DNA of 23,056 bases from a virus. The notes beneath the pieces were generated by a model. It saw nothing but the letters and a program-made list of their open reading frames with translations. It did no database searches and was not told the origin of the DNA. Positions 3 through 20,177 of the stretch are shown piece by piece. Numbering within the stretch: the first letter of the stretch is position 1; each line of letters opens with the position of its first letter. Where the stretch lies: the IMG/VR virus record IMGVR_UViG_3300031673_000506, positions 1-23,056 of that record. The stretch is one strand, 5' to 3'. A program made the position numbers and the translations under genes.

Positions 3-3000
3 GGAAACCGGAGCATCGGCATCATTTACCGCCTTGTAGTTGCCCGTGGGGACGTGGATTATGACGACGATGGTTGGGGCGATCCGGACGACCCGATCAC
101 TAGCACCCGTGACGGGGATCTCCCTTACCTCGTTTTCGACATTGCACCCGCTAATCAGACGGCTTCGGCGGGTATCGCCCGGCTGACGGCGGGCCAGCTA
201 GCAACTCTCGACGGGGGCCTCTCCGAGGACCGGGGCGACCGTATCGTCGAGGTCATCTACACCGTATCCCCGGCTCGCTTCTGGTGGACGAGGAATGACC
301 GCTACGAGAAACGGTTCGGTTGGAACGGTCAGAAGCAACGCTGGGAGCCCTACAAAGGTGGCCCACCCCAGGATCTCGGCCCTCTCGCCTTCGACACGAC
401 CTACCAACTCACCCCCAGGTTCGCGAACCTACCCATCAACGCCTACCTGCCGGGCAACGCTTTTACGCCCGATGCCTACGCCATGATCCGGTTGGGCACG
501 ACTCCGGGGGCGACCAGCCTCCCCGTCGCCCCCGACGGGACCTTCTCCGGTGTTCGGGTCAAGGCCGACGCCGACGTGGAAGGCTTCGATTTCTCCACAG
601 ACCCTCTCGTCTCCGCAGTCGTCGGCCAGACCAACGGCCTCTTGGTTTTCAATCCGAGCTACATCCGGCTGAACGCAGGGCAAACGATCTGGTACAGCTA
701 CCAAGGGTTTGTTGCGGATGCCACGGGCATTGTCGGCGATCTTTACCACGCCGATGTGAACCCCCGGTTCATCTCCCCCATCCCGGGACCTTCCGACTAT
801 CCGTTCATCACGCTGGGCTCCCGGAGACCCCTTTTGGTCACCCTCGCGGAATCCGACGCAGCAGCGGACTCCCTTCCTCCCCCACAGGAGGGGACGGTCA
901 TCGTCTCCCTCTCGACGGGGTGGTTGCGTTTGAGTTCGGCGGACATCGCGAAGTCCGATCCCAAGAGCACCTTCTTCGACAAACAGTTCCTCGGGGCAGC
1001 CGTCATCTACAATGGGATTGCCCTCAACCACATCCCGCAGCCGACAAGGGCATCGACCGCGTTGCTCGACGATGCCGGGGTTCCGGTTCTTGTGACACTG
1101 GGCAACAAGCTCTACATCCCTAATGCGACGTATCTGCCGGACACCATTTTCGGCAGTGACCCCTGGCGAGGGCTAGGCAGATCCGGCATTTTGGACGCCC
1201 CTGATGGGACGGGGGCGATTCCGGCCCAACCTACAGTTCCCGCGAGTGTCCGTCCCGGCGGAGACACGGTGGGGGACACGACAACGGGACGGATTCGCCA
1301 GGTCACCGACGGGACAGGAGACGCTTTCCTGTTCCACTGGAGAGGTGCCCTTCAAAACATCGTGACTGTGGATACCGAAGATGATCTCCCATCATCCACG
1401 AGTATTCCGGTCGGCACCGCCTACATCTGCAAGGAAGCTGTGGGGCTTTCCTCTGGCGTCTGGGGATCACGGGTGGAGATCAGCCGTGACGACCGAAAGC
1501 TCGTCTACGGCAAGTACCTGTACTTCAGCCAGGCGACAGTCACCCCGGCGAACTACACAACAAAAGCCCAACTGCTCTCGAAAATCCGCAAGATTTTCCG
1601 TTTCGCTGGGACTGAGACCCTGCACATCGCTATCGACGGCGTCTATTCGGTCTGGAGTTCCTCACCTCTGGTGCTCTCCAACCCGACCCTGAGTTTCTTC
1701 ACGGCGGATCAGGTCGCCGCCAGCATAAACAGCGTCCTGAATGCGGGTAAGGCTCGGGCGCTGAACGAACGGGTACTCCTGGAATCCCTGACTTCTGGGG
1801 GTTCGGTCGAGATCGGTTTCGGCACGGATGGGGAGAAGGATCTCTCCGGAGCTGCGGTCCTCGGATTCTTGCCTGGCTGGCGGGCCGTTGACGGGATCGT
1901 CAACTGGCTCCCTGATTGCGGGGCCAGTTTTGGGGTTTTCCGCAGCCCCGTGAATCTTAACAGGTCGAATGCGACGGCGGACTTCAATGCGGTAGCCCGG
2001 CTAGAGGATGTCGTGCTCCAAGAGGAGGTTTCACCTAATCCATTCGTGTTCCTCGACAACGTGCCCCTTCAGGACATTGCGGGCTACGACGAGGACGTGT
2101 TCTTCAATTTCTCGAATGTCATCACCGAGGGTGAGGCGGTCCAGATCACCAGTCGGCCTTTGGAGCACTTTGAGGACATCGTAAACCACTTCGAGGAGCG
2201 CAAGTTCAACTGGGTCGAGAACAACACGGTCACCGGAGTCGTCCAGCAGCCGGTTACCACCCTCCCGCTCGAAAGATCCTCGATTGTGTCGGAATCTCTC
2301 CTTGGGGCCCCTGGGATCGGTGGGGGTTTGTACTCGGCCCCGGAGGGGGGTAGTTTCAGTCTCCTCGACCCCGAGACTGATTACGTGCTTCCCCAGGACG
2401 GTCTGACAGGGGAAGCCATCCTCATCGAGCGGTTCGGGAATCTGAGCAGCTACGGTTCTCTGGGCACGTTCACGGAAGGATCCACGGTTTTCAATGATCC
2501 TTCCGCCCAATTCGTGGCGGGCGATAACCCTGTCCAGGACGGATACCGGCTTAAGCTGTCCACGGGGGATGCTCGGGGTTCATACACGGTCAAATCGGTC
2601 ACGGACGACAACAACCTCATCGTCGAGCCCGCGTTCCTGTTTTCCTCGGAACGGCCGATGCCATGGGAGGTCTACAAAGGCTACACGGCGGATCAGTACG
2701 ACCCGGCTCTCGTCGCCGATGCGGTTTACCAGGAGTTCGACCACCTCTCTAGCGAGCCTTTCAAGATCCGCGTCTTGACCCCTCTCGGGACGACGCCGGT
2801 TTCGGAGACGCCTCGTCTTCGGATCCCCAGCACCGAAGCGATGCTGACCAGCGGACGACCGATCTCGATCCGGTTCAAGCTCGAAGAGGCCACAACGGAG
2901 AACACGGCATCTCTAGTCGAGCTTGCCCAGAGCCAACTGGGCACGATCGCCAACAACGCCCTCATTTTGTCTGACAACGCTCGGGTCGATGCGGGGGCAT

Positions 3001-6000
3001 TCAAACTCCGTATAGGGTCTACGTCGGTTCCTCAAACAAGCCCGCCGATCACCCTCACGGGGGTCACGACATTCTCTCCTGACCCCGGAGACGGGGTGGA
3101 ATACCTGACCCAGGATGCAGTCATCGACGGGGAGAGCGTCCCCAAGGGCAGCGTGAAGTTCGGGAGCCCGCTCCTCTCGACTTATGCGGGTTCGGTGGTC
3201 TGGTACGTCGAGCTATTCCAGGCGGCCTCTGCGGTCACGACCGGGACGGTGGAGTTCGATACCCTGACGGGCGACCTCAATTTCAGCCAGGCGGACATGA
3301 CTGCTCACGAGGGGGAGGAAGTCTACCTCGTCGAACAGATGATCACGGAGGAGCGTAAGGACGTAGCAATTGCCCCTACTATCGGCTCGGTCACATTCAA
3401 CACCCCGATCCAGACCGGTCAGACGGTCGAGATGGACTATTTCCAGGCCACTACGGATGGCCGGAAGCTCGGAGATCAGATCACCGAGTTTTTGCCCGTC
3501 TTTGTTCAGAATGAGGTGGCGGTCAAACAGACGACGCCATCCAATGTGTACCTGTTCAACTCCGCTCTTCGCACGGTGGATCAGACCATTGAACCGATCG
3601 TCTACATCGGCCCAATGCAGCAAAATTTTGGGGGAGTACCCGATTACGTGCTGGAGTACCCGGAGCACCTGAATGGGCAGGGGCAACTTACTTTTTCCCG
3701 GGGTATCGCGGACTACATCGAAATCACAGTCTCCTATGCGGTCTACGAGGCCCTAGGGGGTGAGTCCTCATACGAAACGAGTACAAAACCTGTCTACCGG
3801 CCGCCTTTCTACATTACGGCGGCTCAGGATCAGTTCGGTCTTCGTGGCAATCGCGTCGCGGAATTCCAGGTCGGGCAGATGTTGCGGGTCGGAAGCGACT
3901 GTTTCTATGTACGGGGCACAAAATACTACCCCCCGAGGATCGACGACGGCCATGCAGCCGGGGACATCACCGCTGTTCTCATTTTCCCCTCGACAACTCG
4001 GGAAGTCGGTAGTCGATCACCTGGCAACGACTCGATTTCAGTCATCACGGGTATTCCGATCACCACGGTTGTCGACCCGGACGGAACGACGCCTGTTCCG
4101 ACGACAGCCCCCGCTGGTTTCATGCAAACCATCGATCTCGGAGATTTCCCATTCGAGCCGGTGACCAAGGGGCAGACGAAAATCACGTTCCACGGCAACC
4201 TCACGCGGTTTGCCGTGCCTGGGCACATCATCGAGATCGGCGGCTACCCACTCACCATCATTCAGGTCGACATCAATGAGGACGGTAGCCGTACCAAGAT
4301 CACGGTGGCTTCCCCGTTCAATGCAGGTTTCATAACTGGGGGCCAGCCGACGGTGAAACTCTCCGTGCGGCCGGTTTACCCACCATCGTCGCGGGATTTC
4401 TTGGGCGTTGGGCCATTTCTGGGCACGGAACCTGTCGATTTGATCCTATTCGGGGAAACGACGAGCACTGGGCTGGAGAAGCCGGGACGATCACTCATCC
4501 CGGACATCGAGTACAACATTGACCCGGATTCCGGGTTAATCAAGCTCATCGATCCAGGCCAGGCGGCACTGGGGGGCACACAGCGGCTCCTTCTGGCGTT
4601 CACCCGGCGACGGATCATGCAGCCCTTCTACCAGGACGGGGCGCTCCTGTTCCCGAGGTATCACGCCGACTATCTCTACACCACGATCCCGAGTGCCCAG
4701 AACGGCCTCGAAGGCGGCCAACTCACGGCGACGTACACGTTCAGCCATCCGGACGCTTTCTATTTCCGGGCGGTCCCCATGCCGCAATTCATTGGGGAGG
4801 CCGCGCAGGAGGCCCAGAAAGAGATCACCAGCAAGCAGCCTGCGGGCGGCCCTGTCGTGACGACCTCCGGCGGGACGTTGAACTGGCAGCAGGGCAACAT
4901 AGGGCTTCTAGGCGAGCGTCGGCACCTGGCGGACAAGGACAGGGCCGCTCGGTCTTTCCTGAGCTTCTACAACACCACCGTCATCGGCTTCGAGCAGGTA
5001 CTCGAAACGATCTCGGGTGGTCTCATTGGCGACCGGGACGGTAAGTTCCGCTTCTGGGTTGGGCGCGGAAAGGACTACACGCCCCCCGGCTACGAGGACA
5101 CGATCACCGGGCTCCTGAATCCGAGGCTCTTGTGGAATCAGGTCTTCCAAGAGGCTCGTGCTCCGTTGACGAGCATTTGGGTGTTGGAATCGGATCACAT
5201 CGTCGAGCCCTCGACCGCTACCTTGGACAACAAGGTGCTCGAAGGGTCTTTCCCTAACCCGTACCATCTCGACAAACTCATGCAACGGCAGAAGTGGATC
5301 GCCGCCAATGACGTCGATGACAGGCTCCTGACCGGGATTTCGGACACGCAGTTCCATTGGTTCTTCTACTTCACGGCCACGGGGCGGTATCAGCGGATGG
5401 CCGACCCTCACCGCTTCTCCCGGCTGTTCCCACAGCGCACCAAGGCATTCTTCTTCACTTACCCCGGCGTCGGGGCTGATACGGACTCAGGGGATCCCGG
5501 CGTCTACACTTGGGGCCGGATGTTTGGGGACGAGAACGCCCAAACCTACGGCAAGCCGATCGGGCAGCTTCAAAATCCGGTCCTTGGGAACATCGAGCAA
5601 GTCAGTAAGGCCATCCTCTCGGACAGGCTCCCACGGGCACGTATCTGGGGGTACTTCCCTGACGGCATTCCCCAGAGCGTCGTAGACAACTGGGTTGCGG
5701 CGGGCGCATTTCCAGGAGGGGCGACATCGATCACAGGGCCTTGTCTGGTTGCGACGCCTCTCATGCTCCGGGATCTGCCCATCGACCCGGAGACGGGATA
5801 CCCGGACATCTCCCAGTTCTTCGATGCGTACCCCGAGGGTTCGATCGCCAGCCTCACATCTGGCGATCCCAGCATGGCAATCCCGAAGTTCGAAGGTGGC
5901 CAACAGGTTGCCTGGGGGCAGCCGGATGGAAAAACCTACCAGGCATTCATCAGCCGATTGATCGACGTCCACGGCACGCTTGGATTGGTGGGCGTTTTCA

Positions 6001-9000
6001 TCAGAGATGTCCAGTACGGGTGCGTCATCCGGTTCCAAGACGACCTTGGGAATCCTGTCACGAGCCCGCTGAACCTTCTCGTCGGAACCGCTCCGGATGA
6101 GGGTATCCCTGCACAATACTTCCCCATCGAGCAGGGGGACACGATCTATGTCGGACCGCCTGGGGGAGTCTCCACGGCCCCGACGGACCCTCCCGATGCA
6201 GCAACCCTAGCCGAGCTTGTCAAGGTGCTTCCTGGCTACCGGGAGGGCTACGACCTCGACGTGATCTCCAACGGGCAGATCATCGACAAGACGTGGCCCT
6301 CTTGGTACGACCCGTTCTTCCTTGGCATCAAGGAGATCCTCGGGCAGAACCCACCGAAACCGCTCTACCCGTTGGAGGGGCCGGTCGATTTCGCCTACAC
6401 GGCGCAGAATCCCCTCGAAATCCCAGCCCTGACCGGCGGGGAGTTCGACGATTCAGGCGATCAACGTATCCCCTACCTCAAGACGGGGCTCACCGAGCTT
6501 GACAGGTTCGACGAGGTAGATGTCTCGGCAGCAGGTATCTTGGCCGCCCTGAACGCGGCCGGAACTCTCTTCATCTACCCGGACGAGGTTTCGGCACACG
6601 ACGGAGAGACGGTCGATCAGGTCACCCCTTGGGGCGTAGCGGAGAAGGAGCCTGGCACTCTGATCACCGCACAGGATGTCGAGCCGAAGACCCTCGCCCA
6701 CCCTCTGGCGGACGAACCCGGCATCGGCAACGTCGGGGGTCACGATCTTCTCCTCGTCCAGGTGGATGACCTCGGGACGCACATCCCGGTGGGTGCTCAG
6801 GGCATTCTCAGCGTCGGGGCTGCGGAGTCCCGGAAGCTCGACACCAACGTCTACGGCAGCATCATCGAGCCGCCTCGGTTTATCACGCAGACGACCCCGG
6901 CCCTCGGCCCAACCAACCAAACGGGCTCTCCTATCCGGTACGTGTTGGAAAACGCCCAGGTGTTCCTCAACCCGCCCTATCCGCCGGACCCGCAAGTGGC
7001 TCCTCCGGATGGCGTCTACATCACCGAGGACTCGGGCACTGGCCTGACCTACCTCGACTTCTCGTCGCTGGACATCACTCTGAATGATGGGTTTACCCTC
7101 GGCACAGGGAACCTAAACGACATCTGGGCAGCGAGCGCCACGAACCGGATCACCATCGAGATCCTGGCCCGAGCCGACCCGAACATCGCAATTCCGGCCC
7201 CGTCGCCGGGCGGTGGGACAGTGGTTCTCAAGCTGGACATCCAGGGTCTCAACCTGACGGTGACGGACTACGCGGGGGCGGTCACCGGACCGTTCATCAT
7301 GACCGCACCCCCGGTCTTCGGGACTCACTTCGGAGCTACCAATCCTCAAGTGGATTTGAATCGGCAGATCCACCTAGCGATCGTCGGGGCTATCCCGCTG
7401 AACGCTCCGGCAGGGCTGGAGTCCACCTGGATCATCCCCTACAACGCTTCTGTTCCGGGCGTCAAAAGCACTCTCTACGGCTTCGAGTTTTCCGTTTCCG
7501 TGGACACCCACACGGATGCTGCGGCGAAGTCGGATACGGCCTACGTCGCAGACGATCGGCTCTCTTTCGTCGAGGTGCTCGACCTCCAGCTTGCCAAGAA
7601 ACGGGGGACAACCCACTCCGTTTCCGGGCTTGACTTGGAGACGAGCCTTGTCGTCCACGAAGTCACTTGTGCCGGGCAGTTTTCGACCATCAACGCATCG
7701 TCGAACGGCGGCCCAACTCCGGTCCCGTTCACTTTCGTTCAGCGTTCGACCGCCATCGGCCCAGAAGACGCGGGGGGCACCTGGACGAACCGGCCCAACG
7801 CAGCGACCCCGGAGAAAGGAACCCTCAAAGTCCCGGCCATGGAGGCGTGGGGCAACGTCCCGATCGAAGTCGGCGGGCAGCCTTTGTCGGGCGTGCGGTT
7901 CGCCGCCGTCCCATCATGCCCGGACGAGGAAGATGGCTCGACCATCCTTCAAGGAACGGGAGTCACCGCGAGTCAGTATTCCGGGATCACGGGGGCAGCC
8001 GAGTACGACAACCGCATTCGGAGCATCACCACGACTGCCGGAGCCATCTCGAATGTCTTGCCGGGGGACATCGCGATCATCAAGGAGGCGAACGCCGGAG
8101 CCGATCTGGCTACTACCAAGGCGGGGACTTATCTCGTGCGGTACGCTGCGGCAGCGACCCCGGGCCAGCAATACTTCGAGGCTTCCGCCGGGGACACCAC
8201 GGCGGGCGTGGGGGAAGACGGCGACTACTTCGACGGGGAATGGCGGCATGGTGGCTGGCTCCCCGAGAAATTCCCGAAGGTGATCTCCTACACGGACACT
8301 TCCGCTACGACGGCAAATCTCGTGGTGGGTCTGGAGTGGACGGCCTTCACCTGGGGGGCGTCTCGCCTCTACATCGTTATCTCCTCTCCAGGGCTCCTCG
8401 GTTCCGTCCTGGCGGACTATCGGGAGGGGGCACTCAGCGTCGATTTCACAGCGGTCACCGTGGGGGCGGAAACTGTCTCGATCGCGATTGACACGACCAC
8501 GTTCCGGTACGCGGACAACACCACCGCAACCGCAGCACAGGCCACAGCCCTCATCGAGCCTGACATGATGGTCTCCGGAATGACGGAGATGCCTGTCTCG
8601 GTTCGGGGTGGGGCTTTCCCTGACGACCCGAGTGTGTCGGGCTATCAGGACGCCGCCGCTTCCTTGGGCTTCACGGCTCTCACGATGGCGGTCCCTCTCA
8701 GGGCCTCGGCCGCATTCGATATCACCGGCATCACGGCGGGCGGTGCGGCAACGCTGACGAGCACAAACCCCACCTTCGAGCCATGGATGACGGGCTACTA
8801 CATCCGGATCTCCGGGGCGGATGTGGCTGACCAGGACGGTGAGTTCGGGCCGATCACATGGGTCAGTGCGACCCAGGTCACCTATGCAAACCCGGCAGCT
8901 CCGGCCCTCCCTGCGACGGCCGGGACTTTTTTGCTCGTGTGGCCGCAGCTCACGGCAGCGGCGGGCGAGATCGAAGCCAGTGCGGCTCCGGCGGCGGGCC

Positions 9001-11429
9001 ACCTCGGGGTTCAAGCTCCGGCTCCGGTGCCGGTTCCGCCCTACATTTTCCCTGCGGCAGATGACCCGATCTACGAGAACGTCCCTCGGACCATGTACCT
9101 CAACCTTGAGGCACCACTCTGGGAGACCCTGAACAACCCCCACCGCTTCGGACCGACAGGGGCGGTGAACGATATCACCGCAACGGTCGGGCCGGACACG
9201 GTGGTCCTGACGAGCACGACGGCAGTTTTCCTGCCTTGGATGACCGGGCTGTCTATCACGGTGGCCGGGGCGACGGTGGCCGGACAAAACGGTCTCTTCG
9301 GCCCCATCACCTATCTGAACCCGACCCAAATCCGGTACGACAACTCAGGGGCTTTCCCCGCTGAGACAGGCCCGTCCCCTGCCACCTGGCAGCTCGGAGC
9401 GGGCGTCCAGTGTATCCTGCCCTGGACGGACTTGTCCCTGACGTTCCGGGTACAAGCAGGGTTCTTCCTAGAGCCCTCGTTCCCCCGTTCCACGACGAAC
9501 CTCGGGGCGGCCCAGCCCCATGTAGTAGATGCCGGGCACAGCCTCCCCAACCCAGCACCACTTCCTGACCGGGAGCGGGAGATCGGGATGCGGGACTACA
9601 ACTCGTATCTCGGGACCGGGGCAGTGGCTCGAACGACCCCGGAACCTGTGAAGTTCGAGGTTCGGAGGATTCGTCGATTCCACGAAGTCAACGACATCCT
9701 CCACGGAAGTCTCCGGCCGCTCCAGTACGCCTACGAGATCCGTCGGGGGCGCATCAGTGCGCCTCCTGTCATGGACATCAAGCAATTCTGCGAGGTCACG
9801 GCCCTGAGTTTCGTCATGGATTGGGAGACCACCAAGCCTGTCGGAGCCCCCAAGGCCCCCGACGTGTGGAACGACGGGAGTGAAAACACGGGTACGAACC
9901 TCGGGGACTTCGAGGACAAAGACGTAGGGATTAACCCCGGAGACCGCTTCCGTGTGCTGGACGAAAACGGTGACTTGTTCGAGGAAGGTGAAGTTGTCTC
10001 CGTCGTCAGCGAAAGCAAAGTTCTACTGACCCCCCCGGGACTTTCGAATCACACAAATCCGGCGGACTATGTGGGGATGCGCTTCGAGGTTTTCCTCCGT
10101 CAGGCTCCTGTGCCCCATGAGCAGTCCTGCGAGCAACTCCTTGATCTCATCACAAGTAGGCGGGTAACCAGGACTTTCGCGGACTACACCACCGATAAAG
10201 GCGGCTACGTTCCCGAGATCCTGACGGGGCAAGCCTTCGGGGATGTCGCCAACAGGCTCTACGATGATCTGAACGCCGACGGTTCTTCGGGCAAGACCTT
10301 CTCGGCTCTTGGGGTTCGGAGGGATGACATCGTTCTCATCGACCCCGCTGGGCGCATTCCGTTGGACGGGGGTCTACCGTCGCCGCAAGAGCGGGGCATC
10401 CGGCCTTTCGGGGACCTGGGGATTGTCGATCGGGGGGCGGCCTACACCGCAGGGGGGCCGAGCATCTACGATGACAACCGGGGTTTCTACCGGGTCACAG
10501 CGGTTGTGGATAACCAGGGAACTCCTCGTCTCGAAGTGACAGGTGTCTCGACGTTTGCCGGAGCAGCAAACACCCCGATCGTTTTCCCGGAGGATACGGC
10601 CACACGGGCGGTTTTCGGATACACGGTGTACCCGACCATCCACGAGTCGGCGCTCAACCAGCCGCCTTACGTGACGCCGGATCCGGGGGTAGGGAACCGA
10701 GTCGAGGGTCAGGCGGATCTACGTCCGACAAAGGCTCGCGACGCCACAACCAAATCGTTCGAGGGGAATTCGTATTCTCTCCGCCCCTTCTCGTACACGA
10801 TCATTCGGCCATCCAGCCTGTTCAGTGACGAGGCGGTCGACCTTGCGCTCACGATGCGAGAGAGGATGTTATCTCTCATCGAACTTTTCCGGGGGCCGAT
10901 GCGAGGACGCCGGAACGGGGCTTACTACATCTTCCAGCGGGACGAGCACATCGACGAGCTTTGTGACCCCACCGATTCCGAACTTGGGCTCGGGGTATTC
11001 TCGAATCTCATCGTGCAGAACATCGTCGGGCGGCTAGGGGTGACCCCCTTCTCCAACTTCTCGGACGGCCTGTCGCTCCTGGACCGGCGCTTCTGGGTGC
11101 TCGATCGTCGGTTGGACAGTCTCACTTCGGCGGGCGACGGTGTCTCGATGAAAAAGGTCGTTCCGGGGGACACGCCTTACACGGCCTATACGGACACCAC
11201 AGGGGGTGGTGCGTCGGTGCTTCCGGTGCTGCCCGACAGGGTGAATCTGGTGCTCGACCAGACGGACAAGTTCAGGCCCCTCCGGTACGTCTGGCTGGCC
11301 TACAGGGTCCACAGGCTCCTCGGGACGCTGGCGGCAATAGAGAGGTTCGACACGGAGCTTCCCGAGAGACTCGCCCAGCAGGAAGCATTGCTGTTACTCG
11401 AAGACTCCATGAGCAAGGTGGAAACATGA
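3..11429 (+). CDS. Giant beta-rich modular tail/baseplate structural protein (5' partial)
   Basis: No family is recognised for the whole protein. The frame is open from base 3, so the GTG at 54, which has no good ribosome site, is probably internal and the gene probably starts upstream. Residues here count from that GTG (3,791 aa). The sequence is rich in beta-type Gly/Thr/Val/Asp segments, with Pro-rich linkers near 2306 and 2986. Visible parts are a DxDxDGxxD calcium-type loop (2-10), an LGF module (523-605), an aromatic-rich region (1620-1805), a possible lectin-like jelly roll (2362-2484) and a duplicated ~75-aa domain (2889-2966 and 3040-3115). Several G-x-Y-x-V modules and a mostly helical C-terminus (about 3590-3791) complete it. 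No signal peptide or membrane segment is visible. The gene overlaps the next by ATGA and lies two units upstream of baseplate-wedge genes. I infer a large virion component of the tail or baseplate. A tape measure is unlikely because long helices are lacking. Confidence 0.93.
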   Translation, partial: GNRSIGIIYRLVVARGDVDYDDDGWGDPDDPITSTRDGDLPYLVFDIAPANQTASAGIARLTAGQLATLDGGLSEDRGDRIVEVIYTVSPARFWWTRNDRYEKRFGWNGQKQRWEPYKGGPPQDLGPLAFDTTYQLTPRFANLPINAYLPGNAFTPDAYAMIRLGTTPGATSLPVAPDGTFSGVRVKADADVEGFDFSTDPLVSAVVGQTNGLLVFNPSYIRLNAGQTIWYSYQGFVADATGIVGDLYHADVNPRFISPIPGPSDYPFITLGSRRPLLVTLAESDAAADSLPPPQEGTVIVSLSTGWLRLSSADIAKSDPKSTFFDKQFLGAAVIYNGIALNHIPQPTRASTALLDDAGVPVLVTLGNKLYIPNATYLPDTIFGSDPWRGLGRSGILDAPDGTGAIPAQPTVPASVRPGGDTVGDTTTGRIRQVTDGTGDAFLFHWRGALQNIVTVDTEDDLPSSTSIPVGTAYICKEAVGLSSGVWGSRVEISRDDRKLVYGKYLYFSQATVTPANYTTKAQLLSKIRKIFRFAGTETLHIAIDGVYSVWSSSPLVLSNPTLSFFTADQVAASINSVLNAGKARALNERVLLESLTSGGSVEIGFGTDGEKDLSGAAVLGFLPGWRAVDGIVNWLPDCGASFGVFRSPVNLNRSNATADFNAVARLEDVVLQEEVSPNPFVFLDNVPLQDIAGYDEDVFFNFSNVITEGEAVQITSRPLEHFEDIVNHFEERKFNWVENNTVTGVVQQPVTTLPLERSSIVSESLLGAPGIGGGLYSAPEGGSFSLLDPETDYVLPQDGLTGEAILIERFGNLSSYGSLGTFTEGSTVFNDPSAQFVAGDNPVQDGYRLKLSTGDARGSYTVKSVTDDNNLIVEPAFLFSSERPMPWEVYKGYTADQYDPALVADAVYQEFDHLSSEPFKIRVLTPLGTTPVSETPRLRIPSTEAMLTSGRPISIRFKLEEATTENTASLVELAQSQLGTIANNALILSDNARVDAGAFKLRIGSTSVPQTSPPITLTGVTTFSPDPGDGVEYLTQDAVIDGESVPKGSVKFGSPLLSTYAGSVVWYVELFQAASAVTTGTVEFDTLTGDLNFSQADMTAHEGEEVYLVEQMITEERKDVAIAPTIGSVTFNTPIQTGQTVEMDYFQATTDGRKLGDQITEFLPVFVQNEVAVKQTTPSNVYLFNSALRTVDQTIEPIVYIGPMQQNFGGVPDYVLEYPEHLNGQGQLTFSRGIADYIEITVSYAVYEALGGESSYETSTKPVYRPPFYITAAQDQFGLRGNRVAEFQVGQMLRVGSDCFYVRGTKYYPPRIDDGHAAGDITAVLIFPSTTREVGSRSPGNDSISVITGIPITTVVDPDGTTPVPTTAPAGFMQTIDLGDFPFEPVTKGQTKITFHGNLTRFAVPGHIIEIGGYPLTIIQVDINEDGSRTKITVASPFNAGFITGGQPTVKLSVRPVYPPSSRDFLGVGPFLGTEPVDLILFGETTSTGLEKPGRSLIPDIEYNIDPDSGLIKLIDPGQAALGGTQRLLLAFTRRRIMQPFYQDGALLFPRYHADYLYTTIPSAQNGLEGGQLTATYTFSHPDAFYFRAVPMPQFIGEAAQEAQKEITSKQPAGGPVVTTSGGTLNWQQGNIGLLGERRHLADKDRAARSFLSFYNTTVIGFEQVLETISGGLIGDRDGKFRFWVGRGKDYTPPGYEDTITGLLNPRLLWNQVFQEARAPLTSIWVLESDHIVEPSTATLDNKVLEGSFPNPYHLDKLMQRQKWIAANDVDDRLLTGISDTQFHWFFYFTATGRYQRMADPHRFSRLFPQRTKAFFFTYPGVGADTDSGDPGVYTWGRMFGDENAQTYGKPIGQLQNPVLGNIEQVSKAILSDRLPRARIWGYFPDGIPQSVVDNWVAAGAFPGGATSITGPCLVATPLMLRDLPIDPETGYPDISQFFDAYPEGSIASLTSGDPSMAIPKFEGGQQVAWGQPDGKTYQAFISRLIDVHGTLGLVGVFIRDVQYGCVIRFQDDLGNPVTSPLNLLVGTAPDEGIPAQYFPIEQGDTIYVGPPGGVSTAPTDPPDAATLAELVKVLPGYREGYDLDVISNGQIIDKTWPSWYDPFFLGIKEILGQNPPKPLYPLEGPVDFAYTAQNPLEIPALTGGEFDDSGDQRIPYLKTGLTELDRFDEVDVSAAGILAALNAAGTLFIYPDEVSAHDGETVDQVTPWGVAEKEPGTLITAQDVEPKTLAHPLADEPGIGNVGGHDLLLVQVDDLGTHIPVGAQGILSVGAAESRKLDTNVYGSIIEPPRFITQTTPALGPTNQTGSPIRYVLENAQVFLNPPYPPDPQVAPPDGVYITEDSGTGLTYLDFSSLDITLNDGFTLGTGNLNDIWAASATNRITIEILARADPNIAIPAPSPGGGTVVLKLDIQGLNLTVTDYAGAVTGPFIMTAPPVFGTHFGATNPQVDLNRQIHLAIVGAIPLNAPAGLESTWIIPYNASVPGVKSTLYGFEFSVSVDTHTDAAAKSDTAYVADDRLSFVEVLDLQLAKKRGTTHSVSGLDLETSLVVHEVTCAGQFSTINASSNGGPTPVPFTFVQRSTAIGPEDAGGTWTNRPNAATPEKGTLKVPAMEAWGNVPIEVGGQPLSGVRFAAVPSCPDEEDGSTILQGTGVTASQYSGITGAAEYDNRIRSITTTAGAISNVLPGDIAIIKEANAGADLATTKAGTYLVRYAAAATPGQQYFEASAGDTTAGVGEDGDYFDGEWRHGGWLPEKFPKVISYTDTSATTANLVVGLEWTAFTWGASRLYIVISSPGLLGSVLADYREGALSVDFTAVTVGAETVSIAIDTTTFRYADNTTATAAQATALIEPDMMVSGMTEMPVSVRGGAFPDDPSVSGYQDAAASLGFTALTMAVPLRASAAFDITGITAGGAATLTSTNPTFEPWMTGYYIRISGADVADQDGEFGPITWVSATQVTYANPAAPALPATAGTFLLVWPQLTAAAGEIEASAAPAAGHLGVQAPAPVPVPPYIFPAADDPIYENVPRTMYLNLEAPLWETLNNPHRFGPTGAVNDITATVGPDTVVLTSTTAVFLPWMTGLSITVAGATVAGQNGLFGPITYLNPTQIRYDNSGAFPAETGPSPATWQLGAGVQCILPWTDLSLTFRVQAGFFLEPSFPRSTTNLGAAQPHVVDAGHSLPNPAPLPDREREIGMRDYNSYLGTGAVARTTPEPVKFEVRRIRRFHEVNDILHGSLRPLQYAYEIRRGRISAPPVMDIKQFCEVTALSFVMDWETTKPVGAPKAPDVWNDGSENTGTNLGDFEDKDVGINPGDRFRVLDENGDLFEEGEVVSVVSESKVLLTPPGLSNHTNPADYVGMRFEVFLRQAPVPHEQSCEQLLDLITSRRVTRTFADYTTDKGGYVPEILTGQAFGDVANRLYDDLNADGSSGKTFSALGVRRDDIVLIDPAGRIPLDGGLPSPQERGIRPFGDLGIVDRGAAYTAGGPSIYDDNRGFYRVTAVVDNQGTPRLEVTGVSTFAGAANTPIVFPEDTATRAVFGYTVYPTIHESALNQPPYVTPDPGVGNRVEGQADLRPTKARDATTKSFEGNSYSLRPFSYTIIRPSSLFSDEAVDLALTMRERMLSLIELFRGPMRGRRNGAYYIFQRDEHIDELCDPTDSELGLGVFSNLIVQNIVGRLGVTPFSNFSDGLSLLDRRFWVLDRRLDSLTSAGDGVSMKKVVPGDTPYTAYTDTTGGGASVLPVLPDRVNLVLDQTDKFRPLRYVWLAYRVHRLLGTLAAIERFDTELPERLAQQEALLLLEDSMSKVET
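57..83 (+). other. Calcium-type loop DxDxDGxxD in the giant protein
   Basis: The codons give DYDDDGWGD, an exact match to the DxDxDGxxD loop seen in EF-hand-like and thrombospondin type 3 calcium sites, followed by PDD. Two weaker relatives lie further on: DINEDGSRT (residues 1406-1414) and DLNADGSSG (3405-3413), both lacking the acidic ninth residue. Calcium binding is inferred from the motif only. Confidence 0.45.
1620..1868 (+). other. LGF-type module in the giant protein
   Basis: Residues 523-605 read as a beta strand pair, then a short helix starting FTADQVAASIN, then a strand pair, ending in AAVLGF. The same order (SADQ, helix, strands, GALGFG) occurs in the 387-aa protein encoded at 15499-16662. 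Similar modules ending in LGF are known in flagellar-hook and filament-cap proteins and in phage fibres. That family link is inferred from the pattern. Confidence 0.5.
7137..7505 (+). other. Possible lectin-like (ConA-type) beta domain in the giant protein
   Basis: Residues 2362-2484 alternate strands and turns (NRITIEILARAD, VVLKLDIQGLNLTV) and include NRQIHLAIVG at 2436-2445, which resembles the hallmark strand of laminin-G/ConA-like domains. It follows a Pro-rich linker near 2306-2320. This is a weak pattern-based suggestion. A fit would imply glycan or cell-surface binding. Confidence 0.25.
8718..8951 (+). repeat. Internal domain repeat, copy 1 (giant protein residues 2889-2966)
   Basis: The encoded segment starts DIT, contains LTST, PWMTG, FGPIT and TQVTYAN, and aligns without gaps over 58 residues with the copy at 9171-9398, 29 of 58 being identical by hand count. 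The copies are about 150 residues apart from start to start. Confidence 0.85.
9171..9398 (+). repeat. Internal domain repeat, copy 2 (giant protein residues 3040-3115)
   Basis: This is the second copy of the beta module at 8718-8951. It keeps DIT, LTST, PWMTG, GA-VA-Q-G, FGPIT and TQ-x-x-Y-x-N. DNA similarity is patchy (for example CTGACGAGCAC in both), which suggests an old duplication and not a recent or assembly repeat. Confidence 0.85.
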
Positions 11430-11650
11430 CCCCGGAAGAGATCGAAGCGAAAATCAAGGCCCTCGGACTTGATGTTGGAAAATGGGATGGGGTTGAGGAG
11501 CACAAAGCCGGGTCTGAGAGATTCCACGAAATCGTAGAGGGTTTGACCCAGCTCCGTGACATCTTGAGCGGGGCCGCCGAAGCTGATCGTGAGAAAATCC
11601 TCGAACTGAAACTCCAGGTCAACCGCATGAAACGAGGAGGGGGCCGCTAA
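11426..11650 (+). CDS. Small helical protein of unknown function (74 aa)
   Basis: I do not recognise this protein. It is short, soluble and highly charged, with a predicted helix at about residues 3-15 and a long helix at about 28-68 whose hydrophobic spacing (LTQLRDIL, then ILELKLQVNRM) suits a coiled coil. It ends in a basic RMKRGGGR tail. There is no membrane segment. The ATG overlaps the stop of the giant gene as ATGA, with AAGGTGG four bases upstream, so translation is probably coupled. Its own stop overlaps the next start as TAATG. Its position between two large virion-type genes suggests a small tail component or an assembly chaperone for one of its neighbours. This is inference from position and helix content only. 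Confidence 0.88.
   Translation: MTPEEIEAKIKALGLDVGKWDGVEEHKAGSERFHEIVEGLTQLRDILSGAAEADREKILELKLQVNRMKRGGGR
11634..11640 (+). promoter_or_regulatory. Strong ribosome binding site for the 974-aa gene
   Basis: GAGGAGG lies nine bases before the ATG at 11650, within the last codons of the 74-aa gene. It supports this ATG as the true start despite the TAATG overlap. Confidence 0.8.
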
Positions 11651-14574
11651 TGGCTTTCCCACTTCCCGCCCCAATTGATCCCGCAGTGGGTGACTGGGCC
11701 ACCCTCAAGTTCGAGATCCCTGATTTCATTAAGGACATTGCTGCGGCGATCAACTCGGTCGCGGAAATCCTGATCACATTCCTCGACATCGGGCTAACGG
11801 TTCTCCGGTTCGTCAAGTCCTTCCTGATCGCGTTCCTCGACCCCATCAAAGCCATTGTCGAGGCGATCCTTGCCCAGATCCGGGCGCTCATCGATGCCCT
11901 CCGCAAGATAGGCGCATACCTAACAAGCGATTACCCCCTACTCACACCACCATATCCAGATTTGATTGGGGGCTATGCCGACTTCGAGCGCCGCATGATC
12001 GGCAAGCTCACCGATAGGACGGACCCAACTCGTCCCGACACATCCGGGCAAATCAAGACCCTGGCCGCGTTTTTCTATGTTTCTGCCGATTTCACCGAAA
12101 TCCAGCGGTTGATCGAGACGATCAAGAAGATCCTCAAGTTCTTCAATCAGACCTTCACGCTCGGCGGCGGCCCACCCACTCCCGCTATCACCGGAGTGAA
12201 GTACGGTTTCGCGGGTGGTACGGGTTTTACGGGGGCCTACACGGCGGCTTACGATAGCCTCGTAGCGGTTTTCCGGGATGGTACCCCACCGGACGTAGCC
12301 GAGGTTGCATGGCAACTCACTCCCAACACAGTCGTCTCGGAGTACCTCCCGACCCCGCCATTTCCTCCTGGTGGATTCCTCGTTACGGTTTCGACGTTGC
12401 CTGAGGGTATCAGGCTCGTCTACGACCGCCCGGACAAAAATCGGGGTGACGCTTCGAGTCACGCGGCCCCAAGCAAGAAGATGCAGCCCCGCGATTATGG
12501 CCCCGTGCTAGAGCTAGATAGCGGACGGCCCGCCATCTTGCATGGTGGGGCGGACATGATCCTATGGGACTGGGCTTTCACCTATAACAAACCCCTCAAG
12601 GGAGACACCCTCGCCCCAGGTTTCACGAGGATCTACGGTCTCAGCCCGGATAACGAAGTCATTCCCTTGGATCTCATCAAACAGGGAGATGTCTACCTTT
12701 TCCAGCGGACTTTCTGGGTGGAATCCTTCGCGAGAGTCCTCGACTGGATGTCTGGGGGGTATACCTACGCACTTGAATATGATCAGATGCCGCACATCGC
12801 GGACGTGCAGACAAATTCGGATGGGACTGTCGCACTCGTAGATCGTGGCCCCGCATCGACTTTCTACGTCCGCATCGCCTCTTGCACAGAGGATGTCATC
12901 AAAAACAGGTCATTCAAGTACGACCTGTTTTCCTACGCTCCCATGCGGGATGCCGGGATGCCTGTACAGGTTCCTTTGCGGGGAGCCGAGAACACCAGTG
13001 CCTTCTCTCAGCCCTTCAAGGTCACATTCCCGTCTGTGGACACGGCGGAGTACCTGAAAGCCGTCGAGACGGCCCTGGCGGTTCTCGTTCTGAGCCGGGC
13101 TGACATGCCGGTACTCGACGAACTGACGGAAGTACCCGACTCGCAGAAGAAGCTGGCCGAAGAAGGCCAGTTGATGATTCCGGGGGTGGCTCTCCAGAGA
13201 ACAGGACTTGAGGGGTTGAAGTCCCTGATCCGACTTCTCTACATCGAAACAGATATCGTAACCGAATCCAAGCGCCGGGGTGAAAACCCGAGAGACTTCC
13301 GGGTGAGCCTCCGAAACCGAATCCACAGGCTGGTGCTCGATCTGTACGAGAGGACCGGGCCGATGCCGGATATCGAAGCTCGGGTGGTAGAACAAACGGG
13401 GGCCCTTCGGAACGTCACTTGGAAGCAATTGCTCAAGGAGGCTGGTGAAACAGGCATCGCGAACTGGTGGGCCGGTACGGATATGACGATCCTGGAGTCC
13501 ATCGACGTCCACGCCGAAGAGTCCGATGCTCATGCCGAAGCCGATGATTACGGGGTTGCCCTAAACCCTTATTGCATAGGGGTGACGGAACCCACGACCA
13601 ACGAGCTTTTCTTCGTCGATGGGCTCATCCGTGGGAGGTCTCCGCATTTCATCGTGACTCAGCTCGGGGGGGATGTCCCAGTCGTGCGTTCGACTTCCTC
13701 GGCGGCGGAGACTGTGAAGTTGTTGTCCTCGGGCGACTATTTCATGCAGCAGTTTTACGCGCAGTTTGTGAGGAATGACGGAAAACTCGAAGTGCCGGAC
13801 GATTTCTACGATGGGGTGACCCAGGTCATCCAGAGGGGTCGCAAGGATGGGTCCGGGGACATGGCTCCGGTGTTCTACTCCGACAAGAGTCAGATGCAGA
13901 GCATGAGCGGCACCAGCACCCTTCCGGGATCCAATGTGGGGATGGTCTTCTGCCGGGACATTTTCTCCAAAGCCGAGGGTAACCGTATCTTCGGGCAGGC
14001 CGCCTTGGCTCTAGGGATCGCCGCTTCTGCGGCCAAAAACCTCGGTCCGGGGCAGTGGGTGAGTGTCCGTTTTCTCGCTTCTTTCCCGGGCCTCGAAGGG
14101 ATTTTCGATACCCTCCTGCGCTGGCTTGAAGGCATCGCAGAGGCTCTCAAGGGCGTTATTGATCAGATCATCAAGTACATCGAGTTCCTGGAGTCCCGTC
14201 TCGTCGAGCTTCAGCAGCTCATCCGGCGGATCAATGCCCTCATCCAGTCGATTCTCGGGTTTGTCTTCCAGATCCCCTCGTGCTCGGCCTTGTTGCTCCT
14301 CTCCAACGGGACTGACGGAGTTCTCAGTGATTTCGTCACAGCAGGGAACAAACCCTACGATAGTCCCCTAGCCTATGGGGCGGGCGTTGCCGCAGTGATG
14401 CCTTTGATTCCCGGGGCTCCCATTGACTTCCTCCTGAACTTCTTTGTCAGGAGCGACGACCCCGTTGTCCCAGGGGCCACGATGGGGGAGCAGCCCGTAG
14501 GTGAAACTCTCATGGGGGTCGAGAACCTCCCGGCTCCTACTGCGCCCACAACTGACGAACCGGATGTGCTCTGA
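11650..14574 (+). CDS. Large virion-type protein with helical bundles at both ends (974 aa)
   Basis: No known family is recognised. Residues about 20-90 form a run of strongly hydrophobic amphipathic helices (FEIPDFIKDIAAAINS through DPIKAIVEAILAQIRALI). A second such region at about 813-876 includes ALKGVIDQIIKYIEFLESRL. Between them lies a mixed region with an Ig- or FN3-like stretch near 180-275 and a large folded part with several Cys. The C-terminus after 880 is Pro/Gly/Thr-rich. The helices contain regularly placed Asp, Lys and Arg, which favours helix bundles over true transmembrane spans. A strong GAGGAGG site precedes the ATG, and the stop overlaps the next start as TGATG. Lying between the giant protein and the baseplate block, it is probably a tail or baseplate component. 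Membrane contact during infection is possible but not shown. Confidence 0.92.
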   Translation: MAFPLPAPIDPAVGDWATLKFEIPDFIKDIAAAINSVAEILITFLDIGLTVLRFVKSFLIAFLDPIKAIVEAILAQIRALIDALRKIGAYLTSDYPLLTPPYPDLIGGYADFERRMIGKLTDRTDPTRPDTSGQIKTLAAFFYVSADFTEIQRLIETIKKILKFFNQTFTLGGGPPTPAITGVKYGFAGGTGFTGAYTAAYDSLVAVFRDGTPPDVAEVAWQLTPNTVVSEYLPTPPFPPGGFLVTVSTLPEGIRLVYDRPDKNRGDASSHAAPSKKMQPRDYGPVLELDSGRPAILHGGADMILWDWAFTYNKPLKGDTLAPGFTRIYGLSPDNEVIPLDLIKQGDVYLFQRTFWVESFARVLDWMSGGYTYALEYDQMPHIADVQTNSDGTVALVDRGPASTFYVRIASCTEDVIKNRSFKYDLFSYAPMRDAGMPVQVPLRGAENTSAFSQPFKVTFPSVDTAEYLKAVETALAVLVLSRADMPVLDELTEVPDSQKKLAEEGQLMIPGVALQRTGLEGLKSLIRLLYIETDIVTESKRRGENPRDFRVSLRNRIHRLVLDLYERTGPMPDIEARVVEQTGALRNVTWKQLLKEAGETGIANWWAGTDMTILESIDVHAEESDAHAEADDYGVALNPYCIGVTEPTTNELFFVDGLIRGRSPHFIVTQLGGDVPVVRSTSSAAETVKLLSSGDYFMQQFYAQFVRNDGKLEVPDDFYDGVTQVIQRGRKDGSGDMAPVFYSDKSQMQSMSGTSTLPGSNVGMVFCRDIFSKAEGNRIFGQAALALGIAASAAKNLGPGQWVSVRFLASFPGLEGIFDTLLRWLEGIAEALKGVIDQIIKYIEFLESRLVELQQLIRRINALIQSILGFVFQIPSCSALLLLSNGTDGVLSDFVTAGNKPYDSPLAYGAGVAAVMPLIPGAPIDFLLNFFVRSDDPVVPGATMGEQPVGETLMGVENLPAPTAPTTDEPDVL

Positions 14575-15452
14575 TGTCGACTTTCGCGAAGATGGCCGTG
14601 TGGCCGACTGGGTACTTTCGGGCTTACTCAAGCTGGCTACTTCGTAACCGTCGAGACGTAGTTCTCCAGATGAATACGATTACCGCTGAGTTACGCCGGA
14701 TCGGGTACGTTAAGGTGTCCTATCTCATCCAAGAGATCGACGGAGAGAACCGGGCGACAGAGCAACGCTCGGGCTTCGCGGTGACAGCGGGCTCTAGTTT
14801 GGCCCGGCTCTGCCAAGCCTACATCGCAAATGGTGGAAACCCCCTAGATATTTCACCGTTCATGTACCCCGACGCTACGGAGATCGTCTCTACGGATGCA
14901 CAAGGCAACCCGATCCTAGCCGAGCAGTACCCTTATGGAGGCGTGGTCGCCCCTCGATCAGTCGATACCACTAGCCCGGGAGGGAAGCCGGGGGGGACGG
15001 GGTATGAGTCGTACGAGGGGGGTTGGCTCAGGACGGACAGGTATTACCCGGCCCGGCAGAATGGGCGGCGGGACCGAGGAGGCTTCGACAGCGATAGCAT
15101 CGTCCGGCATATGCACGCCATGAGGGGGTGGGCAAACCAGATAATCAAGGAGCGGCTTCAGAACATCGAGTGGCAGATCATCAAGCTCTGTGATCTCCGG
15201 GAACAGCTTGAGACCGAACGGGATGAAATCATGGTGCAAGCCTTTGGTGGCACGCTCTCTGGGGTGGGGGCTTTTGACGAAGACAGGTTCTCCACGGGAC
15301 TTCGTGTGCAGAGCCTCGTGGCGGATATCCAGGACCTCATCTTCGAGCAAGATAATGCGGAGCAGAGTTTCAAGGACAGCACTCAGATCGGTTTTCTGTC
15401 CTTCACTTTCCCAACCGTGCCATCAGAGGACAGGTTTCCGCTTGGCTGCTAG
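14574..15452 (+). CDS. Unknown phage protein with C-terminal coiled coil (292 aa)
   Basis: This protein is not recognised. Residues 1-110 form a compact mixed domain. Residues about 120-170 are a Gly/Pro/Arg/Tyr-rich, probably flexible linker (SPGGKPGGTGYESYEGG). Residues about 173-222 form a long charged helix (IIKERLQNIEWQIIKL, then REQLETERDEIM) that should make a coiled coil, and a second helix covers about 242-268. The start shares one base with the preceding stop (TGATG), with only a weak GGAT upstream, so expression probably depends on coupling. The TAG stop is the left edge of the conserved motif at 15449-15471, so this is the last gene of its unit. A structural or connector role between the giant proteins and the wedge is plausible from position. 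Confidence 0.9.
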   Translation: MSTFAKMAVWPTGYFRAYSSWLLRNRRDVVLQMNTITAELRRIGYVKVSYLIQEIDGENRATEQRSGFAVTAGSSLARLCQAYIANGGNPLDISPFMYPDATEIVSTDAQGNPILAEQYPYGGVVAPRSVDTTSPGGKPGGTGYESYEGGWLRTDRYYPARQNGRRDRGGFDSDSIVRHMHAMRGWANQIIKERLQNIEWQIIKLCDLREQLETERDEIMVQAFGGTLSGVGAFDEDRFSTGLRVQSLVADIQDLIFEQDNAEQSFKDSTQIGFLSFTFPTVPSEDRFPLGC

Positions 15453-15498: not shown

Positions 15499-16662
15499 GT
15501 GTCTAGGGATTTTCAAATTGCCTGGCCCTGTCCACACGCCACCCTCGAAGAGGTGGTGCGGTTAGGGGCGGATCGTCAATCGCTGGCCTGTCGGCAGCCT
15601 GTGGCTTCGGCCAACACCGTCAGGATCATGGTCAATAACGAGTTGTACGTGCCTCAAAGCGGGCTGTACACCCCGGCAACGCTCTTCGGGACGCAATCCG
15701 GCCCCTTCGACGTGATCGAAAACGAAAATCTCCTGACCGTGGAAACCCCCCTAGGGTCTCAGACGGTTGTTTTCCCTGTAGCGGGGACCGCTCGGTTCAG
15801 TGCAGATCAAACCGTCACGGAAATGCTCCGGCAGAACTTCAACGTCGCTCAGGTCAGTCAATCCAACGGACACCTTCTGCTTGCCGAAACATCACAAGTC
15901 GGGGCCGACTCTTTCGTCAAGGTCACCGGAACAGCGGCGGGGGCTTTGGGTTTCGGGACACCTGAGAATGGCTACCAGTGGAGAGCCCAAGGCCGTCAGA
16001 TTTACCCCCCGTGGGGTCTATACCAACGCCCTGATACAATCACCAACAGGTTTCCGCGTTTTCAGCAGCCTGTCCGGGCGAGTCCGATCTTCAAGGTGAC
16101 CTATTCTGTCCCTCCCCACAGGTGCTTGCGCTGTGGGGGTTCTTATGTCGAGAATGATTTCCGGTTCGATGAGGCCGGGCAGGGCATTCTCATCGAGAAC
16201 GAGAATCTGCTCTACCAGGCGTGCCTCAAGGTTCTCCTGACCGACCGGGGGAGCAACGCCTACCACCCATGGTACGGCACACTCATCCGTTCCCGCATAG
16301 GGTCCAAGGCGCTCGGCGGAGTTGCGACCCTAATCAGCGAAGATGTCCGGCAGGCCCTCGCGAAATTCCAGGCACTCCAACAATCCCAGGGGACTTACCA
16401 ACAGGTCACGTTCAAGGAGCGTCTCTACTCTGTCCTGTCTGTTCGTACTTCCCCTCATTCGCAGGATCCCACGACGTTTCTTGTAGATGTCATAGTGCAG
16501 AATGCCTCGAATGAGCCGATTGAGTTGTCGATCGTGTTCACAGTTCCGGGGGTCGTAGCTCTGATGGGGAGTAATGGTCTGATTTTGGATGGGAATCGAT
16601 CGGGGATCTCACAGAACATCTTTGCAGACCCGACACGATCTCTCCTCACAGGTGGAACCTGA
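15499..16662 (+). CDS. Baseplate wedge protein, gp25/GPW-like with N-terminal extension (387 aa)
   Basis: Residues about 234-352 match the gp25/GPW baseplate family: a first helix NENLLYQACLKVLLTDRG, then a PWYG turn at 257-260, a second helix with EDVRQALAKFQAL, and closing strands (LSIVFTVPGVVAL). In T4 gp25 and P2 W this domain nucleates the wedge and binds the gp6/J protein, which here is the next gene. Typical relatives are near 130 aa; this one carries about 230 extra N-terminal residues. These include WPCPH (9-13), an LGF module (76-153, ending ALGFG) and a CLRCGG motif (Cys209, Cys212) just before the gp25 part. A metal site is possible, but only one CxxC pair is clear. The start is GTG. 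Two bases separate it from the next gene. Confidence 0.87.
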   Translation: MSRDFQIAWPCPHATLEEVVRLGADRQSLACRQPVASANTVRIMVNNELYVPQSGLYTPATLFGTQSGPFDVIENENLLTVETPLGSQTVVFPVAGTARFSADQTVTEMLRQNFNVAQVSQSNGHLLLAETSQVGADSFVKVTGTAAGALGFGTPENGYQWRAQGRQIYPPWGLYQRPDTITNRFPRFQQPVRASPIFKVTYSVPPHRCLRCGGSYVENDFRFDEAGQGILIENENLLYQACLKVLLTDRGSNAYHPWYGTLIRSRIGSKALGGVATLISEDVRQALAKFQALQQSQGTYQQVTFKERLYSVLSVRTSPHSQDPTTFLVDVIVQNASNEPIELSIVFTVPGVVALMGSNGLILDGNRSGISQNIFADPTRSLLTGGT

Positions 16663-19600: not shown

Positions 19601-20177
19601 CGCCCTGTCGAATGACTCGTATGTCGTCCAGGAGTATCTGACGGCGGCCCTGGGGGATGTCCTCAAGATAGACGCATGGTCGCAAGGCCCCTTAGTAGAC
19701 GTATTCCTTCTCCAGAATCCCTTGGATTGGGCGACTTCAGATGGCGGCGGCCCGAGCAACGATTTTCGGGGTGTTTTTCAAGATGACATCAGCCTGATCC
19801 ACCTCAACACGCCTCCGGACGTGAACGGGATTCCCCTCAAGAATATCTCGGAGTCGGAGTTCATCATCGGGAACCAAGGCTTGTGGATCCCTGGGTACAG
19901 CGATGACACGACCCTCCAAGCGGAATATCCATTTGCAACCCCTGCTGAGATCGACACCCAACGAGTGGTGATCACTGCGAATCGCGTACTTCTGGCGCTC
20001 CCCAAGGGTGACACCCCCCTCAACCACGACTATACGGCGACCTACCTCGTGTCTGGGGACAATGGGGTTAAGGGTATTGAGCCGGGACCGATCTCCTACG
20101 TCGTCCTCGGGACGCTCGACTTCACCTACGATGAGGACTCGAACTACCAGGAGAAGCTGTTGGGCCGGAGGGTGTAG
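16665..20177 (+). CDS. Baseplate J-like wedge protein with FN3-like insertion (1170 aa)
   Basis: This is a T4 gp6 / P2 gpJ-type protein, a dimeric wedge scaffold of contractile tails. Residues about 1-110 form an Ig-like beta domain. An FN3-like domain (about 118-310) starts SGIWIERFDRTVKISVEG and ends YYVVTAVYDILGEEYESEF, with a long insertion at about 165-282. A helical part follows (320-435), then the Baseplate_J core (about 440-660) with the family signature ADAPGTAGNVGTGAI at 507-520 and later ATNEAWTYGGTNNETNRQL. Residues 890-975 fit the C-terminal domain (FVGALGFGAPLRQSDVIGVI). About 195 residues of unrecognised beta-type sequence follow. The product is larger than P2 J (about 300 aa) and T4 gp6 (about 660 aa). 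AGGTGG lies nine bases before the ATG, and the stop overlaps the next start as TAGTG. Confidence 0.92.
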   Translation: MATLAPKFMGLDGVYRDNQILSTDSFVKFFTGSIDPSTVDVQVSIRGAGFTSDPDLVVFEGAEFTIPNPSAYPDGLRLFPGDNLIQAKSILTNGQATPPGIVTARLSLERDVQADAIAPSGIWIERFDRTVKISVEGLADDRITGYNFYGSTSPGGGSVGYYRINPKLVLTGDTTEVVDTLNNLSVDSTVATNPDGSPAADPLLFNVIGNQTDRLGNIVQADFNESVIVSEIVTQLRFEATLSSVRTTQRFSFTHDRLANTNSSVNPAVPNADFNAIAATDPIYYVVTAVYDILGEEYESEFSPEVSGSPLIVTPTIGTFPQVTRQQILRDTVLSIQRSQPTIDVKPGSTTRDVFLDPFTSEAERIRFIVDFVHRAQSFATLLEIDDPGYTGLSIPVNQSAYKIALKHAFFLNGDADVQAMIDSTFDHLANRRGVTREPGKRARGEVTAYMTTRPTSTKVIPIGTSAPAGSVNFRTISAGRIGTGGAGISYSPSTGRYSTRLFIQADAPGTAGNVGTGAIKGFTNGPSGVLATNEAWTYGGTNNETNRQLATRADGVLSSVDTGTYRGYTQTAAGVPGVLQVNVVDAGHPLMLRDLNPATGKHTGGLVDIWLRGENVATLTDVFAFSFEIMKNVQFEPVGALSDLIFRAVDPNLSTSNPIIEMLEIPDWGYEFENLTTGQVLDLTDVVIIPPDGIQLSSAYNDPLNNHFGDIFRGSYRYRTSDKYVFPRQPVRAIESLAGDPTLTGVVDSDLYKLFHVSDPLLLGRSTEAGDYLQVVLPADSTVPTIPSGTPVVVTDENHVLLGGTEYLENLGINPLTVIVQSLDKTITYVSPYDSSGTPDYTFVQETGVTPLGFDLTIGSQLAVGDEVLVSYEHDENFTVTYTSNILVAVTQDAVDKTRHATADVLPKEGVPLGADIFATVVLRRKQDPAQADGAIRSALARFVGALGFGAPLRQSDVIGVIETVPAVSYVIVPVTKLALSNDSYVVQEYLTAALGDVLKIDAWSQGPLVDVFLLQNPLDWATSDGGGPSNDFRGVFQDDISLIHLNTPPDVNGIPLKNISESEFIIGNQGLWIPGYSDDTTLQAEYPFATPAEIDTQRVVITANRVLLALPKGDTPLNHDYTATYLVSGDNGVKGIEPGPISYVVLGTLDFTYDEDSNYQEKLLGRRV
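20167..20172 (+). promoter_or_regulatory. Ribosome binding site for the GTG start at 20177
   Basis: GGAGGG lies four bases before the GTG that shares its first base with the TAG stop of the J-like gene. It supports the GTG and a coupled start. Confidence 0.75.

Follow-up and report, generated by a model that had tools for sequence, protein, structure and literature searches.

The window analysed here, a 23,056-base IMG/VR contig, opens with a single gene of more than 11.4 kb whose homologues form a family of giant proteins encoded beside baseplate genes. We consider it reasonably probable that its product, a giant of ~3,950 aa and ~420 kDa, serves as an obligate structural component of the baseplate in a contractile-tailed huge-phage lineage. 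A structural role in the tail, which the earlier note had proposed, is likely; the single, beta-modular gene lies inside a tail/baseplate block. The genes of the window on which this reading draws are the following.

3–11429, + strand: giant gene; 3,808 of its ~3,950 residues present, 5′ end lost at the contig edge
11426–11650, + strand: 74-aa protein, start overlapping the giant's stop (ATGA); homologues in 45 loci
11650–14574, + strand: 974-aa partner; co-occurrence with the giant in all 52 testable loci
14574–15452, + strand: 292-aa conserved baseplate-cassette protein
15499–16662, + strand: gp25-like sheath initiator with a ~210-aa N-terminal extension; PF10934 E 7e-6, below the curated cut-off
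16665–20177, + strand: Baseplate J (gp6-like) wedge protein, 1,170 aa; PF04865 E 4.8e-17
20177–21796, + strand: protein in the gp7/tail-protein-I position; profile matches phage G gp189, E 5e-16

At 3–11429 (+), one uninterrupted ORF encodes 3,808 residues; it is still open at the left edge, and its TGA stop overlaps the ATG of the next gene (ATGA, 11426–11429). At the base composition of the window a stop is expected every ~32 codons, and 3,808 open codons would occur by chance with a probability of ~10^-53. A further 56 loci contain complete, closed homologous frames of comparable length. The ORF and its closed homologues thus confirm the earlier description of one left-open gene longer than 11.4 kb with more than 3,800 residues. 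Residue 1 of the window (GNRSIGIIYRLVVARGD) aligns with residue ~145 of L035 (GNRSLGIIYRLVVARGD), the closest complete homologue (~60% identical), whose N-terminus is MSFDFSGYVLRSAQVAPSNAPTTAEA. Therefore, ~144 residues are missing and the true giant measures ~3,950 aa. The fallback start near 54 fails on the same alignment, which makes GTG-54 an internal codon and puts the start ~144 residues upstream of window residue 1. Extension of the assembly to the left had been advised, and an overlapping contig was sought without one being found. Locus L126 (contig IMGVR_UViG_3300031578_005417) encodes the 974-aa partner with 100% protein identity from residue 171 on. It is probably another assembly of the window virus and gives no leftward extension.

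Scans of viral contigs for relatives of the giant returned 5 with one sequence and then 196 in IMG/VR with a profile. Among 81 loci examined, 57 hold closed frames, with complete lengths of 3,444–4,164 aa (median 3,723), a range that leaves out one broken frame (L080, 2,189 aa). The contigs carrying the gene reach 618,736, 536,053, 485,040 and 435,804 bases, and the sole match among annotated phage records is LR745208.1 (uncultured, 485 kb). The alignment of 53 non-redundant homologues is co-linear from end to end, except at residues ~2300–3140, where identity drops to 0.31 vs 0.42–0.46 in other regions; the best-conserved region is the C-terminus. Mean pairwise identity is 0.41 for the giant, 0.46 for gp25, 0.46 for J and 0.44 for the VgrG-like protein, and the divergence of the giant correlates with that of gp25, J, the VgrG-like protein and the partner (Spearman 0.76–0.88). 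Because these identities are close and the divergence is rank-correlated, we read the giant as a putative component of the core baseplate machinery. A receptor-binding protein that is swapped or hypervariable should show a different pattern.

The giant frame is broken in L080:9641-20775 and L083:3-8025, by assembly error or real splitting. In L058, the N-terminal 120 aa are a short-repeat extension matching the minor tail protein family phrog_13352 (E 4.7e-18). A single match from a genome scan, L115 (RGPS01000140.1), is a 15.5-kb contig carrying a giant homologue and binned in a Terriglobia (Acidobacteriota) MAG; this binning is a hint that some family members have hosts in the phylum Acidobacteriota and is too thin to name a host.

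The genes around the giant make up a cassette of constant order that begins with the VgrG-like spike and a ~200-aa gene, continues through the giant and genes for ~75, ~950 and ~292 aa, and ends with gp25, J and I. Upstream, the usual order is a tape-measure candidate, ~235–275 aa, ~490–530 aa, 1,343–1,924 aa, the ~805-aa VgrG-like gene, ~200 aa and the giant, in which the ~490–530-aa and 1,343–1,924-aa genes are homologues of phage G gp184 and gp185. The ~805-aa gene gives weak VgrG/spike signals (DUF2345 E 2e-4, Phage_base_V E 0.07), below the curated cut-offs. A scan with the ~950-aa partner yielded 52 loci with enough upstream sequence; the giant is seen directly in 51 of them, and the remaining locus, L189, lies on the same contig as giant locus L075. 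The earlier placement of the gene beside baseplate genes is therefore correct, as gp25, J and the I-position gene follow downstream within one tail/baseplate block. LR745208.1 (uncultured huge phage, 485 kb) resembles the window in having a full-length 3,642-aa giant homologue and homologues of the cassette genes, and differs in that the block of giant and partner and the gp25/J block are ~20 kb apart on opposite strands. In a few other contigs, gp25 and J are not directly downstream and other genes intervene. Adjacency of the giant to the wedge genes is thus common, not universal, and its gene position shows membership of the module, not its place in the particle.

The 974-aa partner has hydrophobic/helical ends and a variable middle, with weak tape-measure-like matches to its N-terminal helices. 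Downstream of the I-position gene, window positions 21883–22320 encode a 145-aa member of phrog_644 (E 9e-23), a family of unknown function.

We compared the tail genes with those of known phages. The PF04984 sheath family has no match in eight contigs. With the phage G sheath protein as the query, a homologue appears in 7 of 7 large contigs tested, and the gp25-like profile matches phage G (2e-24) and Tunturi_5 (4.9e-25). Tunturi_5 is an isolated myovirus with a 167-nm contractile tail (PMC11924767). On the strength of the sheath homologues, together with J and gp25 matching phage G and Tunturi_5, the tail of the giant-carrying phages is very probably contractile. Bacillus phage G also has a contractile tail. 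In its tail block (gp178 sheath, gp184, gp185, gp187 gp25-like, gp188 J, gp189), the sheath, gp184, gp185, gp25, J and I-position genes all have homologues, and these follow one another as they do here. In contrast, the 40-kb tail region of phage G that was searched has no homologue of the giant or of the 75-, ~950- and ~292-aa genes, and its sheath measures 579 aa vs 1,768–2,488 aa in the giant-carrying lineage. Judged by J (26.7% identity, E 2e-24) and gp25, the closest cultured relative is Tunturiibacter phage Tunturi_5 (309-kb myovirus), whose host belongs to the Acidobacteriota. It differs in that the 43-kb region searched has no homologue of the giant or partner; large genes there are annotated as RCC1-like and tail fibre.

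The sheaths of the giant-carrying phages are 2,488 aa in L119/L120 (G008), 1,770 aa in L121 (G007), 1,768 aa in L116 (G006) and 1,894 aa in L024 (G004). Their C-terminal ~390 aa match the phage G sheath, the middle is extra sequence, and the N-terminus is sheath-like in the three checked. The longest sheath listed in a published survey is 1,283 aa (PMC9230969).

In order to describe the chain itself, we predicted the structures of two slices, residues 1095–2290 and 2612–3808 (2,393 of 3,808 residues), with alignments of 53 and 50 sequences. The first slice reaches pLDDT 79.1 and pTM 0.49, and the second pLDDT 80.3 and pTM 0.73. For both, the prediction is a string of small beta domains, interrupted by one central helical segment in the first slice and ending in a helical C-terminus in the second. 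Over the two slices, strand content is 22–30% and helix content 14–18%: the prediction gives 30% strand and 14% helix in residues 1095–2290, and 25% strand and 10% helix in residues ~2612–3596, followed by the helical C-terminus (54% helix). The composition agrees, with Pro+Gly at 17% and helix-formers at 33%, vs 51–55% helix-formers in the candidate tape measures. Prediction by slices had been suggested as a check, and for these two it bears out the description of the protein as beta-rich and modular. The parts of the giant are listed below.

1599–1880, + strand: beta module, residues ~533–626, ‘FTA..VAASIN...LGF’; hhalign 93% to a sheath insert, 82% to the gp25 N-terminal extension
2460–2636, + strand: small beta-barrel-like module, residues ~820–878; hhalign 96%, common to the tail-protein-I-position protein
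3285–6872, + strand: first predicted slice (slice M), residues 1095–2290; predicted beta modules, pLDDT 79
4779–5015, + strand: central helical segment, residues ~1593–1671, adjoining the most conserved motif EQVLETI-G--IGDRDGKFRF
6900–9422, + strand: variable zone, residues ~2300–3140, with differing inserted modules among homologues
8715–8885, + strand: copy 1 of a window-specific inserted module, sharing 47% identity with copy 2 across 72 aa
9141–9404, + strand: window-specific inserted module, copy 2, tandem partner of copy 1
10827–11420, + strand: helical C-terminal region, residues ~3609–3806, from the predicted structure

The tandem pair of inserted modules in the variable zone is unique to the window. 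Profile comparison reveals modules repeated within the giant, and the ~210-aa extension of the gp25-like protein holds a module common to the giant and the sheath insert. The hhalign figures are pairwise probabilities; of the ~3,100 slice comparisons made, almost all score far lower. The whole giant profile has no match to the sheaths by hmmsearch; only slice profiles matched. At the level of folds, residues ~1371–1456 match phage tailspike barrels with Z of 8–10 (best 10.3, 80 residues, 2.5 Å) and the T5 tail tip with 6.9. The barrels matched by residues ~3244–3369 are EF-Tu-domain-II-like; the lambda tail tip is among them (7.7), on a par with unrelated proteins. A further partial match is to the phi812 baseplate (6.1). 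These matches span single modules of ~80 residues, rank level with translation-factor barrels that are unrelated, and do not point to a function. The viral structure library gives no whole-chain fold match for the two predicted slices, and no hub, spike or wedge fold is listed for them in a search that sees single modules and so does not exclude such folds.

Profile searching had been recommended; Pfam, PHROGs and PDB sequences give nothing significant for the core. The baseplate wedge profiles (gp6/J, gp7/I, gp25) of Pfam and PHROGs have no match in the giant either, and separate genes fill those roles. The database matches of L079 and L058 do not identify the family, being local to an inserted module and to the N-terminal repeat extension, respectively; in L079, that module matches repeats in phrog_2885 and phrog_701 (E 3e-6, 7e-6). 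These two PHROGs giants, a baseplate wedge profile of 4,179 positions and a virion structural one of 6,136, are very long, as is the giant, whereas the likeness is limited to this one module and the giant core is without a match. In size and location the giant resembles the giant structural proteins of huge phages, exceeding ~3,000 aa and being encoded in the virion module. In a survey of huge phages, predicted proteins reached 7,694 aa, and a structural role was tentatively given to some (PMC7162821). Since giant predicted proteins in huge phages are already on record, size alone is not new. Ranking the protein among the larger virion proteins is fair for a putative virion protein, but its length is not exceptional beside those 7,694 aa and the two PHROGs families. 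We found no description of the family in the literature searched. One large structure-based annotation effort excluded proteins >3,000 aa (PMC12774648), so the family would have been missed there. What we rate as new is a contractile-tail baseplate with an apparently obligate giant component added.

Several other roles were weighed. A very long single tail gene recalls a tape measure protein setting tail length, and we give this almost no weight. The giant is beta-rich and non-helical, with 17% Pro+Gly, and three related contigs carry a separate helix-rich, cysteine-free gene of 1,008–1,093 aa at the expected place, upstream of the giant and following the sheath and small genes. The structure and this separate candidate rule out the giant as tape measure, and the earlier statement that it is not a helical one stands. 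The 1,343–1,924-aa gene upstream of the spike was also considered for this role and set aside; its match is to phage G gp185, and the helix-rich ~1,000-aa gene fits the role better. That the giant is ejected or internal, or works as an enzyme on the host, is very improbable. The core has no recognised structural family, as such a protein might, but no catalytic domain is recognised, the modules are of beta-barrel/Ig type, and the gene lies within the baseplate block.

A receptor-binding tail fibre or spike, or a host-range adhesin, is unlikely, though it remains the strongest of these rivals. The protein is modular and beta-rich, modules are swapped in zone ~2300–3140, and the partial fold matches include tailspike barrel domains. 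However, only this zone varies, and the remainder evolves like the core baseplate genes. Both ends are conserved, the C-terminus best, with no fast-evolving tip, and the giant lies upstream of gp25/J, whereas fibres usually come after gene I. Somewhat less likely still is an external ornament dispensable for assembly, such as a whisker, cage or tail wrap, close to the ‘conspicuous tail or baseplate ornament’ of the earlier note. The great length of the giant would suit it, and an outer coil is reported around the phage G sheath (PMC13282480). Yet phage G has this wrap and no giant homologue in the tail region searched, and the giant is strictly retained and co-inherited with its fixed partner and the baseplate genes. 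Its co-linearity in 53 non-redundant homologues and a divergence in step with gp25, J and the VgrG-like protein make both fibre and ornament unlikely.

Returning to the giant as a structural baseplate protein, we suggest that it is probably a scaffold between the hub/spike and the wedge, with an exact place that we infer. The chain would be a string of small beta-barrel and Ig-like modules that, as a collar or wedge extension, may join the central hub/spike to the gp25-J wedges. The helical C-terminus may serve as a packing or anchoring end, and the variable zone (~2300–3140) would face outward and tolerate inserted modules. Such a scaffold could keep the parts of the enlarged baseplate together and relay the recognition signal to the sheath. 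More tentatively, and with some doubt, the whole contractile tail may be enlarged, with an obligate ~3,700-aa baseplate protein and its dedicated partner, sheaths above surveyed lengths, and extended gp25- and I-position proteins, all of them built up from one pool of beta modules.

With these findings, what had been an outlier lacking annotation becomes a defined and widespread family whose place in the tail operon is fixed. The family offers a marker for a huge-phage lineage and a target for cryo-EM. Together, the giant, the oversize sheath and the shared modules make the scale-up of contractile tails in >400-kb phages testable. If the tail is indeed enlarged throughout, it would represent a distinct architecture of the contractile injection machine, scaled with genome size.
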